This document shows, one piece after another, positions 1,965 to 7,146 of a DNA stretch of 8,393 bases. The stretch is taken from NCBI GenBank assembly GCA_021783895.1, contig JAJXTJ010000030.1, positions 1 through 8,393 of the forward strand, read 5' to 3'. Every line of letters starts with the position of its first letter. Within the stretch, counting starts at the first letter, position 1. The notes beneath the pieces are model-generated. The model was not told the DNA's origin and made no database searches. It saw only the letters and a program-made list of their open reading frames with translations. Origin of the DNA: Pseudomonadota bacterium. Its GTDB lineage: Bacteria > Pseudomonadota > Gammaproteobacteria > Burkholderiales > Sulfuricellaceae. A program made the position numbers and the translations under genes.

Positions 1965-3659
1965 TTAATAAGCCCAATATGGCCCCTGGCCGGACGGCGT
2001 AGCCGCCCCCTGGATAGCCGTAAACACCTTTCGCCCGAAGAAAAATGGGATCCCCCAGTCAAATTGGCGGCTGAATGCGGTACCTCCCGCGTTGGCTGCC
2101 GTGACACCAACCGCCAGCGCATCCACATTCACCAGGGTGAAATTCACCAAACCGCTGGCCAAGCCGCCTGACGCCGTGTTTGTGGCCGAAAGCGCCAAAG
2201 GAGTGGCTGGGCAGTAAAAGCCGACTGATGACGTACACCGGCTGATCGTAGAATCTGCAAAGAAAATCCCGTTGCTGCCGCTATCGATGAAGCTGGTTAT
2301 CGTTGTCCCCTTGTAAGTGGTTGAAAAATGTCCGGAGCTATTGGCCGCATAGACAGTGGTGCTGCCGAGCGCGTTGTCCGCCTGGGTGCCGATGCCGAAG
2401 ATCAGCGAACCCGTGGGGTTTGTGGCACCCGCATCGCCTATCGCAGGAAGAACCATCACGACGCCGTTGTTGTCCTGAGAAAATAGCGCAACCGGGTTCA
2501 TGATAATTTGTGATGACGTCACTTTTGTTCCGACGCACCCCGAAGCCGGGCACGAGTAGTAAGTTGCAGGAATCACGCTCGCCATGCAAGGGTCGCAGTC
2601 GTTGGAAAACAGCCCGACACCCAGGATACCGTTTGCCCCCATACCCGCGGCAGTGCTCTTGTTGAGCCCGGTGCTGCTGCAATCGTTGGGAATGCCAGCA
2701 ACGCCACCGGGATTGTCGCCGATCGTCTGAATGGGCGCATTCAAGGCAACTTCGCCAGCGAGTTTGATGTCTGCGCGCCGCACCGATCCCCACGCAAACC
2801 CGTCGGCGAACACCGCGCACTCGCCCAGCGCATTGCCGCTCGAATTCATCACTGCGGGCAGGCTGAGGCTGGCATTGAGCACGCCGGGCTTTACCAAACG
2901 CAGTCCCGATGAACCCGTATCCACAAGCACATGGTCGATAGTCTGGCAATTCGCTGTTCCGGGCTCACACACCGTAACGCTTACAAAGGGGATGTTGAAT
3001 GCCGGGATCGCTAACGGGCCGCCATCCAGTACGACCGACAACGAATTGGATACAGGGGTGACGGTCAGAGTGGCCGAACTGCTGGCGCTGCCTCCCGGGC
3101 CCGTGCAGTCAAGGCCGTATGGGTATGTGCCTGCCGCACTTTGAGAAACCGTTTGGCTGCCCGAAGTGGCGGTTGTCCCGCTCCAGGCTCCGTTGGCCGT
3201 ACACGCCGTGGCATTCGTGGTGCTCCAGGTCAATGTAGAAGACTGCCCGACGGCGGTACTGGCGGGCGTGAGTGAAATGGAAACGGTGGGAGGGGCCAGC
3301 GCCGGGTTATTGGAAACGGTAAGGGTGGCCTGCGCGCTGCCACTGCCGCCAGGGCCTGTACATGTGACTGAGTAGCTGTAGCTGCCGGCCGCCGTCTGCG
3401 ATGTTTCCTGAGCGCCGCTGGTCGCGATGGCTCCGCTCCAGGAATCGCTTGCCACACAGGATGTGGCGTTTGAGGCGCTCCAGGTAATGGTTGCAGCCTG
3501 GCCTGCGACCACCGTTAGCGGGCTCAACGACAGACTGACTATGGGGCTGTTGACAGGTGAGGAAGAACTGCCGCCACCCCCGCCGCAAGAAGCGATCAGC
3601 AGGACGGCTGCTACAGCGAGGCAACGTGCAAGAAAATGTGAACGCATACCGTTTTTCAT
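1965..3659 (-). CDS. DUF3443 lipoprotein with two Ig-like repeats and a pepsin-like domain
   Basis: The 564-residue product is exported. Residues 1-25 are a lipoprotein signal ending in lipobox LIASC (lipidated Cys25), followed by a glycine/serine linker. Residues 40-116 and 125-201 are two Ig-like modules, each with one Trp and a Cys pair. Residues about 206-564 match DUF3443, a family without an assigned function as far as I know. That domain contains VLVDTGSSGLRL (Asp247), NGILGVGLF (343-351), TGSLIFGIG (416-424), SFIDSGSNGIFF (Asp459) and WGIPFFFGRKVFTAI (535-549). These lie in the order and roughly the spacing of pepsin-type aspartic proteases, with many cysteines (231, 238, 281, 327, 355, 358, 370, 375, 475, 483) fit for disulfides. 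The start ATG overlaps the DUF2844 stop (ATGA), indicating translational coupling; no Shine-Dalgarno is visible. Upstream in-frame sequence is antisense-like and rejected. Protease activity is my inference. Confidence 0.88.
   Translation of the reverse strand: MKNGMRSHFLARCLAVAAVLLIASCGGGGGSSSSPVNSPIVSLSLSPLTVVAGQAATITWSASNATSCVASDSWSGAIATSGAQETSQTAAGSYSYSVTCTGPGGSGSAQATLTVSNNPALAPPTVSISLTPASTAVGQSSTLTWSTTNATACTANGAWSGTTATSGSQTVSQSAAGTYPYGLDCTGPGGSASSSATLTVTPVSNSLSVVLDGGPLAIPAFNIPFVSVTVCEPGTANCQTIDHVLVDTGSSGLRLVKPGVLNASLSLPAVMNSSGNALGECAVFADGFAWGSVRRADIKLAGEVALNAPIQTIGDNPGGVAGIPNDCSSTGLNKSTAAGMGANGILGVGLFSNDCDPCMASVIPATYYSCPASGCVGTKVTSSQIIMNPVALFSQDNNGVVMVLPAIGDAGATNPTGSLIFGIGTQADNALGSTTVYAANSSGHFSTTYKGTTITSFIDSGSNGIFFADSTISRCTSSVGFYCPATPLALSATNTASGGLASGLVNFTLVNVDALAVGVTAANAGGTAFSRQFDWGIPFFFGRKVFTAIQGAATPSGQGPYWAY
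3057..3542 (-). repeat. tandem Ig-like modules within the DUF3443 lipoprotein
   Basis: Two protein modules repeat with an exact 85-residue (255-base) register and no gap. Cys68/Cys153, Cys100/Cys185 and Trp60/Trp145 coincide, as do the blocks AxxSG, SQ.AAG.Y and CTGPGGS. By hand count 44 of 77 aligned residues are identical. Such modules usually hold a catalytic domain away from the membrane or bind partners. The divergence shows that this is an old duplication, not a recent slippage event. Confidence 0.85.
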
Positions 3660-4123
3660 TGGATGTCTTGCGAGGTAACGCCCGCGGGCATTTCGCTCGG
3701 CAAATAGGCCCGGCCAAAGAAATCGCGCATACGGCCACCCGACTCGATGACCAGATTGCTTCCCTTGACTTGAGAACGTGGATGTCCCGCATGAGCGATG
3801 TGCGACTGCTGCGCCAGCATGGTATCGAAGTGGGGGCCCAGGAGTTGCCGCAAATCCGGCTTGAAGGCTCCCGACCAAGCCACCGCAAACACCGTACCGC
3901 TGGCCGACAAATATTGCCGAATTGCCGTCCCGCTCGGCAAGGTCAACTCGTACACGGTATAAGCGGCAGTCGCTGAGACACTCGCTGGTGTCTGCACCTT
4001 CATATGGACTCTATCTGCCTCGATGCTCGCGAGGTTGCCCCCAAGTGTCGCATGTGCGGAGAAACTGGCGGTGGTGAGAACAAATCCAGCCAGTGCCAGA
4101 ATCGCCGAAATGTAATTTGGCAT
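3656..4123 (-). CDS. secreted DUF2844 family protein
   Basis: A small exported protein of 155 residues. Residues 1-25 form a Sec signal peptide with a hydrophobic core (ISAILALAGFVLTTASF) and an AHA cleavage site before TLGG. The mature part has the DUF2844 pattern as I know it: LGGxxxSIxAD near the start, YTVYELTLPSGTAIRQYLS and FAVAWSGAFKPDLRQLLG in the middle, and SGGRMRDFFGRAYLP near the end. The biochemical role is unknown. A good Shine-Dalgarno (AAGGAA, complement of 4132-4137) lies 8 bases before the ATG. The stop overlaps the start of the DUF3443 gene, so the two proteins are made together and probably act together in the periplasm or outer membrane. No cysteines and no catalytic motif are evident; a partner, inhibitor or substrate role for the putative protease is conceivable but unproven. 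Confidence 0.85.
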   Translation of the reverse strand: MPNYISAILALAGFVLTTASFSAHATLGGNLASIEADRVHMKVQTPASVSATAAYTVYELTLPSGTAIRQYLSASGTVFAVAWSGAFKPDLRQLLGPHFDTMLAQQSHIAHAGHPRSQVKGSNLVIESGGRMRDFFGRAYLPSEMPAGVTSQDIQ

Positions 4124-4472: not shown

Positions 4473-5867
4473 TCAGTGCTTGGCGCCAGGATTGAGAAAC
4501 AATTTCACAATTTCAGTCTTGTTCTTTTCTCTCGCCAGAGATAGCGGTGTAGCCCCCTCCCGATGGGCGGCATTACAGTCGGCACCGGCATCCATCAGGA
4601 GCTTGATGACCGCGAGATGCCCGTTGGCGGTGGCCTTGTGCAAAGGCGTCCAGCCTTCTTCATCACACTGGTTTACTATGGCGCCTTTTTTGAGCAGCAT
4701 CTGGACGATCTCGGTATGTCCACGGGCAGATGCCTGCATCAGGGGTGTCCAGCCGTAGCGGTTGGCGGTGTCCGGGTTTACGCCTTTATTCAGCAGAATG
4801 GCGGTGACTTCCTTGAAGCCATTGAATGCGGCCCAGTGGATGGGGGCATACCCGTCCTTGTCCTGAATGTGGATATTGGCGCCATTTTCAATTAACAGCT
4901 TGGCGATGTTTTCATTGCCGTTGAAGGTGGCGATCATGAGCGGAGTCCAGCCGTTTTCGCTGACATGGTTCACGTCGATGCCGCCCTTGATGAATAATTC
5001 GGCGGTAGCCTGATCTCCCCGTTCCAGGGTGGTCATGAAGTACTGTGCCTGGAAGCCGATTCCCTTTTCGCTCAGAGCCTTTTTAGCTTTATCCTGCTCC
5101 CATGGGTCGATTTCGACTGCTGCTGCGGCTTGTTGTTTCAGCATTTCATAGGTTTTGTTCAGGATCAAAATATCTCGTGCGACATCCTCGGGAAAGCCCT
5201 GGCGACCGCCACGTTTGTCCATCATCAGGTCCGAGAAGTAATCCTCGATTGCCGGCGTATCCCACAGCTCGGAAATTTTGTTGAGGATGCGTTCAAATTT
5301 CTGCTCCAGCGCGAAAGGATATCTATCCGGCATTTTACGGAGGATAGCGGCCATTTTTGAATTTTTCTTTTCGCGGAAACGCGCCGTTGCCAAATCGCTC
5401 AGGCAACGCTGGTTGACCGTCAATTTGCTGACTGCCGTATGCGGCACGAAATAGCGCATGGCCCATCCCGTTTTTTTCGGCTGGTAAAGGAACCAGCCAG
5501 TTTCTGAACAGGCCTGACCGAGGGTCATTCCGCTCATGGGAGCGCCGGACTTGAATTCAAGAACGAACGGCAAGCTGGCTTTCTCCCACTCGTCCTCAGC
5601 GATCTCTTCGCCATTCTGGCTAACGAGGTGCGCATCATCGAGCAGGCGTATCCACTTTATTTCCTCGATAGAAATCGGTTTCTGCTTCGCGTTTGCGGAG
5701 GCAAAGGTGATGAACAGTTTCTGTTTCGGATGGAATGCGGTGATGCTGCAGAGGGAGTTTTTGCCATCCATGTAAGCGATCATGCAAGCTTTTGGACGTT
5801 CATCCGGGGGTTCATCTGCAAGGTGACATGCTTTGGGCAATGGCCATTGAAAATTTTTTGTTTTCAT
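4473..5867 (-). CDS. ankyrin-repeat protein with N-terminal GspE/PulE-type accessory domain
   Basis: A 464-residue protein with no signal peptide or membrane segment, so probably cytoplasmic. Residues 1-155 resemble, from memory, the domain found before the ATPase core in betaproteobacterial GspE/PulE-like proteins. It has two beta-rich halves: one with the lead LPKACHLADEPPDERPKAC and the segment IKWIRLLDDAHLVSQNGEE, the other reading FVLEFKSGAPMSGMTLG. Residues 180-245 form a helical linker with the block ELWDTPAIEDYFSDLMMDKR. Residues 272-461 are six ankyrin repeats of 33 residues: the first degenerate, four canonical (G-W-T-P-L...A...G) and a shorter last one. Ankyrin stacks bind proteins; with the N-terminal domain this suggests an adaptor, perhaps for a pilus or secretion ATPase, which is inference. 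The ATG at 5867 keeps the conserved N-terminus but has no obvious Shine-Dalgarno. The gene stands alone between long spacers. Confidence 0.88.
   Translation of the reverse strand: MKTKNFQWPLPKACHLADEPPDERPKACMIAYMDGKNSLCSITAFHPKQKLFITFASANAKQKPISIEEIKWIRLLDDAHLVSQNGEEIAEDEWEKASLPFVLEFKSGAPMSGMTLGQACSETGWFLYQPKKTGWAMRYFVPHTAVSKLTVNQRCLSDLATARFREKKNSKMAAILRKMPDRYPFALEQKFERILNKISELWDTPAIEDYFSDLMMDKRGGRQGFPEDVARDILILNKTYEMLKQQAAAAVEIDPWEQDKAKKALSEKGIGFQAQYFMTTLERGDQATAELFIKGGIDVNHVSENGWTPLMIATFNGNENIAKLLIENGANIHIQDKDGYAPIHWAAFNGFKEVTAILLNKGVNPDTANRYGWTPLMQASARGHTEIVQMLLKKGAIVNQCDEEGWTPLHKATANGHLAVIKLLMDAGADCNAAHREGATPLSLAREKNKTEIVKLFLNPGAKH
4485..5054 (-). repeat. six ankyrin repeats, 99-base period
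   Basis: The units begin at about residues 272, 305, 338, 371, 404 and 437 of the ankyrin protein, a strict 33-residue register. Units 2-5 carry the consensus G-x-T/A-P-L/I-x-x-A-x-x-N/R-G, the helix pair ending in LL, and the G-A/V-x-x-N turn. The first unit lacks the TPL motif and forms an N-cap; the last (EGATPLSLAREKNK) is a C-cap. Confidence 0.9.
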
Positions 5868-6240: not shown

Positions 6241-7146
6241 TTACTTCTTGTTGCCCTTTTTCTTGTTTTCCATCATGTCATGGATCAGTGGGGCGAGAAT
6301 TACTTCCATCGCGAAGCCCATCTTGCCGCCGGGCACCACCAGGGAATTGCGGCGTGACATGAATGAGTCGTGGATCATGTTGAGCAGGTAGGGGAAATCC
6401 ACGTTCAAGGCTTTCGGGTCTTTGAAGCGGATGACCACGAAGCTTTCGTCCGGCGTCGGGATGTCGTTGGCAATGAACGGGTTGGAGGTATCGACCGTCG
6501 GCACGCGCTGGAAGTTGATGTCGGTGCGCGAGAATTGGGGCGTAACGTAGTGAACGTAATCGGGCATGCGGCGCAGGATGGTTTCCACCGTGGCTTCTGC
6601 CGAGTAGCCGCGCTCTTTGTTGTCGCGATGGATTTTCTGTATCCATTCCAGATTGACGATCGGCACCACGCCGACACCCAGATCGACATAGCGCCCCACA
6701 TCCACGTCGCCGTCCTTTGCCAGGCCGTGCAAACCTTCGTAGAACAGGATGTCGGTGCCGCCGGGGAGATTTTCCCAGGGGGTGAATTCGCCTGCCTTCA
6801 AATCGGTGCCCAGGCGGGCATTGTGCTCTTCGGCTTCATCGGTGCTATGCAGATAATAGCGTTTTTTACCGTTACCGGACTCGCCATAGTTCTTGAACAG
6901 GGCTTCGAGCTTGTCGAAGTGGTTGGCTTTCGGTCCGAAATGGCTGAAATTGGCGTTACCCTTGGCTTCGCATATCTTTACCGCCTCGCGGTATTCCACC
7001 CTGTTGAGCGAATGGAAGCTGTCGCCTTCCACCACGGCTGCCTTGATATTTTCCCGAGTGAAAATATGTTCGAACGCGACTTTGACCGTGGTCGTGCCGG
7101 CACCGGACGACCCGGTAACCGCAATAACGGGGTGCTTTTTCGACAT
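6241..7146 (-). CDS. prk: phosphoribulokinase
   Basis: Phosphorylates ribulose 5-phosphate with ATP to ribulose 1,5-bisphosphate, the acceptor for Rubisco in the Calvin cycle; cytoplasmic. The 301-residue length fits the proteobacterial class I enzyme (about 290). The P-loop is GSSGAGTTTV (12-21), with the family's Thr in place of the usual Lys. VEGDSFHSLNR gives Asp42, His45 and Arg49, matching the Rhodobacter catalytic base and substrate residues. His100 is kept, FYEGLHG (135-141) supplies the Walker B acid Glu137, and NLEWIQKIHRDNKERG contains Lys171, Arg174, Asp175 and Arg179. The tail is lysine-rich (ENKKKGNKK). The ATG at 7146 has a good Shine-Dalgarno (GAGAGG, complement of 7155-7160). 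It is a one-gene unit with its own promoter and terminator; no Rubisco gene or cbbR is adjacent in the window. The CbbP name is equally used. Confidence 0.97.
   Translation of the reverse strand: MSKKHPVIAVTGSSGAGTTTVKVAFEHIFTRENIKAAVVEGDSFHSLNRVEYREAVKICEAKGNANFSHFGPKANHFDKLEALFKNYGESGNGKKRYYLHSTDEAEEHNARLGTDLKAGEFTPWENLPGGTDILFYEGLHGLAKDGDVDVGRYVDLGVGVVPIVNLEWIQKIHRDNKERGYSAEATVETILRRMPDYVHYVTPQFSRTDINFQRVPTVDTSNPFIANDIPTPDESFVVIRFKDPKALNVDFPYLLNMIHDSFMSRRNSLVVPGGKMGFAMEVILAPLIHDMMENKKKGNKK

Follow-up and report, generated by a model that had tools for sequence, protein, structure and literature searches.

Pepsin-type aspartic proteases have long been thought to be very rare in bacteria, and a locus that appears to encode one raises the question of whether DUF3443, a protein family of unknown function, belongs to the pepsin fold. 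The locus lies in an 8,393-nucleotide stretch of DNA from a Pseudomonadota bacterium of the Sulfuricellaceae (assembly GCA_021783895.1, contig JAJXTJ010000030.1), here called the window, and all features of the window described below are on its minus strand. The gene in question (1965..3659; ATG at 3659, stop codon at 1965-1967) encodes, by translation and Pfam search, a DUF3443 lipoprotein of 564 amino acids. An earlier note, made from the letters alone, had assigned the protein to DUF3443 and proposed that it is a membrane-anchored aspartic protease or a derived, possibly inactive, relative. The assignment is confirmed by a PF11925 match covering residues 204-564 (1968..3050; E 4.9e-120, 401.3 bits against a curated cut-off of 25, profile positions 4-367 of 367), while the proposal gains support from a bilobal predicted fold and a conserved Asp pair. 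Predicted structure and sequence conservation together make it likely that DUF3443 proteins are secreted aspartic peptidases, anchored by a lipid, with both lobes of a pepsin fold in a single chain.

The predicted structure of the DUF3443 domain is a high-confidence, single-chain bilobal beta fold that matches structures of the pepsin family (peptidase family A1, PF00026: pepsin, endothiapepsin and Irpex lacteus aspartic proteinase) over its whole length, with 11-18% identity in the listed structural alignments. One catalytic Asp motif is found per lobe within the one chain, each followed by an invariant Gly at the place of the psi-loop Gly. Translation of 1965-3659 on the minus strand places Asp247 in VLVDTGSSGLRL and Asp459 in SFIDSGSNGIFF, 212 residues apart, with NGILGVGLF beginning 96 residues past Asp247, TGSLIFGIG preceding the second Asp, and WGIPFFFGRKVFTAI beginning 76 residues past Asp459, just as the earlier note had read these landmarks. 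The first catalytic motif, D247-T-G-S250 (2910..2921), and the second, D459-S-G-S462 (2274..2285), were assigned from conservation across aligned rows, and the N-lobe hydrophobic-hydrophobic-Gly motif I345-L346-G347 (2619..2627) from the conservation of its Gly and its register with bacterial pepsins. The predicted flap hairpin (residues 277-300; 2760..2831), recognised as two adjacent strands, carries Phe284 at the place of pepsin Tyr75. The C-lobe psi-loop segment D534-W-G-I-P-F-F-F-G542 (2034..2060) is taken as the second hydrophobic-hydrophobic-Gly equivalent, given the conservation of Gly536 and a short alignment match.

Conservation was assessed in an alignment of 270 rows, comprising 30 locus reading frames and 240 proteins (the best 120 of 7242 and the best 120 of 3603 at E <= 0.001 in two homology searches); the relatives are not independent, and some rows repeat one gene, such as L001 and L015. 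The 20 lowest identities to the window DUF3443 domain in this alignment are 37-43%. Asp459 is Asp in all 270 rows and Asp247 in 269, the remaining row having a gap that very probably belongs to P0060, whose sequence starts past that point. Of the two outcomes that the earlier note had named as fatal to its reading, a fold that is not bilobal and Asp positions that vary among homologues, neither is seen. The motif of lobe 1 reads DTGS in 249 rows, DTAS in 13, DTGA in 4, and DTGT, DNGS, DTES or a gap in a single row apiece, and that of lobe 2 reads DSGS in 225, DTGS in 19, DSGT in 14, DAGT in 8, DAGS in 3 and DSGA in 1, so that D[ST]G[ST] stands at both motifs in 239 rows. The spacing from Asp to Asp ranges from 202 to 238 residues and is most commonly 212-214. 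Gly347, Gly461 and Gly536 are each present in 270/270 rows. The N-lobe psi-loop signature is complete (Ile, Leu or Val at 345 in 264 rows and Leu at 346 in 261, before Gly347), and in the C-lobe a hydrophobic residue stands just before Gly536 in nearly all rows, with Asp at the first position in 231. The earlier argument that such landmarks are hard to explain by chance is borne out by the invariant glycines, the retained Asp pair and the full-length match between the predicted fold and pepsin. Ten cysteines (231, 238, 281, 327, 355, 358, 370, 375, 475 and 483) are each found in at least 267 rows.

Sequence comparison adds a fainter signal. Neither PF00026 nor any other aspartic-protease Pfam family matched the window protein at E <= 1; a direct search of PDB sequences gave 0 matches at E <= 10, and a search with the profile of alignment A1 gave 2 unrelated matches (E 0.17 and 1.3) and no aspartic protease. 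Since no direct match was found, the link between DUF3443 and pepsin rests on the fold and on a weak profile match. The latter was obtained with a profile of bacterial pepsin homologues (alignment A3: L035 and 29 of 120 listed proteins), which aligned with the DUF3443 profile over 90 N-lobe columns (score 31.6 with hhalign E 0.0029 and probability 10.7%, against at most 25.7 in 200 column shuffles and 16.2 for the reversed control). This alignment pairs D247 with the catalytic Asp, Phe284 with the flap Tyr and Gly347 with the psi-loop Gly. Taken by itself, the N-lobe scored 31.4 (probability 24%, a score reached by 0/100 shuffles) and the C-terminal part 18.2 (probability 7.4%, reached by 0/100 shuffles). 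In the C-lobe only a short match was obtained, which placed DWGIPFFFGRK on VLGLPLLCGRY (score 18.5, probability 1.6%, reached by 1/100 shuffles). The profile-profile comparison suggested by the earlier note is thus in register but weak, and the case is carried by the predicted fold. A further hint of kinship, drawn from sequence matches, comes from L027, a reading frame of 4118 codons with a DUF3443 match below the curated cut-off (E 3.9e-4) and, in the part examined, an Asp_protease_2 match above the cut-off (E 8.2e-7), which makes it a possible bridge between the two families. A part of this frame (L027:1-3240, minus strand) contains bacterial Ig or cadherin-like modules, two motifs resembling those of aspartyl proteases (VDTGSDS ... 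LDSGAVS) and PD40 repeats. Separately, relative P0055 carries the source name 'predicted aspartyl protease', indicating that some automatic annotation has already made the link.

Several observations weigh against an active pepsin-like enzyme. The hhalign probabilities are low (11-24% for the whole domain or N-lobe and 2-7% for C-lobe pieces), a global hhalign run against the bacterial pepsins aligned only 3 columns, and aspartic-protease families were absent among the 25 of 30 Pfam families listed for 85 members (E <= 1). The DUF3443 positions equivalent to pepsin Trp39 and Asp303 were obtained by a gap-free motif alignment with pepsin numbering. The place of the flap Tyr75 is occupied by Phe in 265 rows, Tyr in 4 and Leu in 1, and that of Trp39 by Arg in 269 rows with one gap. 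Two residues ahead of Gly536, where pepsin has a hydrophobic side chain, stands the Asp seen in 231 rows. A further difference from pepsin lies at the place of Asp303, which holds Leu, Met or Ile in 264 rows. At the catalytic motifs themselves, 13 rows have DTAS and 11 have DAG[ST]. Phe75 is a common replacement and occurs in some bacterial homologues, none of which is reported to be active by Rawlings and Bateman (PMC2761423), who also describe the mutation to Phe75 as weakening rhizopuspepsin. Conservation of the Asp pair favours activity and replacement of the flap Tyr counts against it; on balance, DUF3443 proteins are probably active. What occupies pepsin positions 218 and 303 had suggested a neutral pH optimum, but this prediction was abandoned, as shewasins with such changes peak near pH 4 (PMC4814920).

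Among the alternatives, the one that survives best, tentative as it is, overlaps with the peptidase reading and restricts activity to some branches, DTG-type members being proteases and the DTAS branch and others degenerate. The spread of the lobe 1 motif (249 DTGS against 13 DTAS, 4 DTGA and singles) and the presence of six paralogues in one genome would fit such a division, but the DTAS rows keep both Asp residues, as do three individual copies with DTAS at the first motif, two of them on Burkholderia plasmids (L057:2716-4026 and L058:2491-4038) and the third L022:1321-2604. Less likely still is a binding protein that retains the pepsin fold without proteolysis and whose cleft holds a peptide or glycan, in the manner of the TAXI-type plant xylanase inhibitors. 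The nearly fixed changes of Tyr75 to Phe and Trp39 to Arg, the replacement of Gly249 by Ala in 13 rows, and the annotation, in one branch, of the upstream gene as encoding a solute-binding subunit are compatible with it. However, both Asp residues are kept in every row that covers them, and the inactivity of three pepsin-like proteins has been ascribed to a change of the C-domain Asp to Ser (PMC11313796). Convergence or chance, by which a beta fold of other origin would have come to carry short motifs resembling DTGS, could appeal to the missing direct matches in Pfam and PDB sequence searches and to the low identities of the structural alignments, but the predicted pepsin fold speaks strongly against it and makes it very improbable.

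The N-terminus offers a signal peptide that ends in the lipobox I22-A23-S24-C25 (3585..3659), as read from the translation. A loose lipobox pattern occurs in 210/240 listed relatives; the 30 misses include truncated starts and several proteins with a Cys-Gly stretch past the hydrophobic segment, which the pattern disallows. Such a lipobox should place the DUF3443 protein in the envelope. Between it and the domain lie two modules, recognised by comparison with each other: residues 39-116 (3312..3545), Ig-like by appearance, and residues 124-201 (3057..3290). The two repeat each other in tandem, aligning over 78 residues with a score of 256 against 79 for the best of 500 shuffles. The earlier description of a lipoprotein on two Ig-like modules therefore stands as regards the lipobox and the repeats, whereas no Pfam Ig model matched the window protein and 'Ig-like' remains that reader's own term; NCBIfam gave a single match, under its cut-off and outside the DUF3443 domain. 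In L018, only about 20 residues separate the lipobox Cys from the DUF3443 domain, a linker so short that it leaves no room for a pepsin-like prosegment. Without such an N-terminal prosegment, control of DUF3443 would have to come from elsewhere.

The most likely source of that control would be DUF2844, the protein encoded alongside, whether as a chaperone, an inhibitor or a substrate. The DUF2844 gene (3656..4123; PF11005, E 2e-37; 155 aa with a signal-peptide-like start) lies immediately upstream of the DUF3443 gene in the window, and its stop codon shares the ATGA at 3656-3659 with the DUF3443 start. Among 398 genomes sampled from the Trinickia phylum, DUF3443 exceeded the cut-off in 10, one of them the centre of the sample (G003), picked for having DUF3443; an eleventh genome (G141) had only the weak L027 match; DUF2844 was present at E <= 0.001 in the same 10 genomes and in 0 of the other 388, and 18/18 of its loci in this set adjoin DUF3443. 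DUF2844 stands beside DUF3443 in the window and in 11 further loci (12/12), with the order reversed in L001. The same pairing is seen at each of the 30 loci among L001-L031 whose DUF3443 match is full, although several of these loci represent one gene. One genome, G326, carries six DUF2844-DUF3443 pairs (L019, L028, L030, L031, L052 and L054). Strict pairing was considered and rejected, as 3/5 plasmid records have DUF2844 and 2/5 do not. In the latter two, from Caballeronia and Burkholderia vietnamiensis (L056:2168-5050 and L059:1437-4050), no DUF2844 was found within the 4 and 3 kb examined, and the upstream gene is annotated as a TAXI-family TRAP solute-binding subunit; these copies, a divergent plasmid branch, still hold both Asp motifs. 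The best reading of the gene neighbourhoods is that DUF2844 is the usual partner of DUF3443. A split zymogen, in which DUF2844 would act in trans both to help a lipid-anchored envelope pepsin fold and to inhibit it, seems an unlikely arrangement. An AlphaFold2 model of DUF2844 from 12 sequences reached a pLDDT of only 54.9; the best Foldseek hit of this low-confidence model had E 0.066, with none at E <= 0.001, and a Pfam scan of 12 DUF2844 members gave no other family below E 0.01.

Retropepsin-like bacterial proteases share a DTG-type motif with DUF3443, together with the aspartic protease chemistry predicted for it. Two examples are Rickettsia APRc (PMC4140852) and a Pseudomonas protein (PMC12239564); retropepsins, however, are one-lobed and must dimerise (PMC2761423), whereas a DUF3443 chain contains both lobes. 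Shewasins and other bacterial pepsin homologues resemble DUF3443 in being bacterial and bilobal with two Asp motifs (PMC2761423; PMC4814920), and shewasins likewise lack a prosegment and have a hydrophobic residue at the place of pepsin Asp303 (PMC4814920). By 2009, however, pepsin homologues had been reported from only seven bacterial species, and these lacked signal peptides (PMC2761423); shewasin D, which has no prosegment, resides mainly in the cytoplasm (PMC4814920). DUF3443 members, in contrast, carry a lipobox. The PF00026 proteins of Tahibacter, Arenimonas and Lysobacter (L035 and alignment A3) resemble DUF3443 in the in-register N-lobe match and, over a short stretch near the C-terminus, in LGLPLLCGR as against WGIPFFFGR, but they keep the flap Tyr (invariant in 30 sequences) and match PF00026. 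Unlike family A1, DUF3443 shows no PF00026 match, has Phe for Tyr75 and Arg for Trp39, and is bacterial, with ten conserved Cys and a lipobox; its short members, L018 among them, have no space for a prosegment. As DUF3443 nearly always lacks the flap Tyr and gave no PF00026 match in the scans above, it is not filed in family A1; it most probably works like a member of it.

Of 7998 clustered proteins scored against the window DUF3443 domain, 7242 matched it at E <= 0.001, and the best 120 listed are all PF11925. Source names among the listed relatives include Betaproteobacteria, Competibacter, Pseudomonadales, Sulfotelmatobacter and Terriglobia, the last two of which belong to the Acidobacteria. 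A copy (L002) also occurs in a genome titled Nitrospinota, but DUF3443 is missing from the remaining 23 of the 24 genomes searched there, so misbinning of L002 is possible. DUF3443 was absent from 14 control genomes. Elsewhere in the window, a 464-amino-acid protein (4473-5867) combines five ankyrin repeats with an N-terminal part that resembles DUF6982 under the cut-off, and a Phosphoribulokinase/uridine kinase family gene (6241-7146; PF00485, E 9.2e-68) hints at a Calvin-cycle autotroph.

DUF3443 is thus a predicted pepsin-fold family that keeps both catalytic Asp residues. In the mechanism envisaged, Asp247 and Asp459 would meet across the cleft, activate water and cut polypeptides outside the cytoplasm, while the repeat modules would keep the domain clear of the membrane and the ten conserved cysteines may pair as disulphides. 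No papers on DUF3443, PF11925 or DUF2844 were found in a literature that excludes most subscription journals. As two Pfam families of unknown function, DUF3443 and DUF2844 are open to joint examination in one experiment. If active, DUF3443 would add to the pepsin fold a large branch of proteins that bacteria export, offer a test system for a dedicated partner in DUF2844, and bear on whether the pepsin chain was already duplicated before eukaryotes arose.
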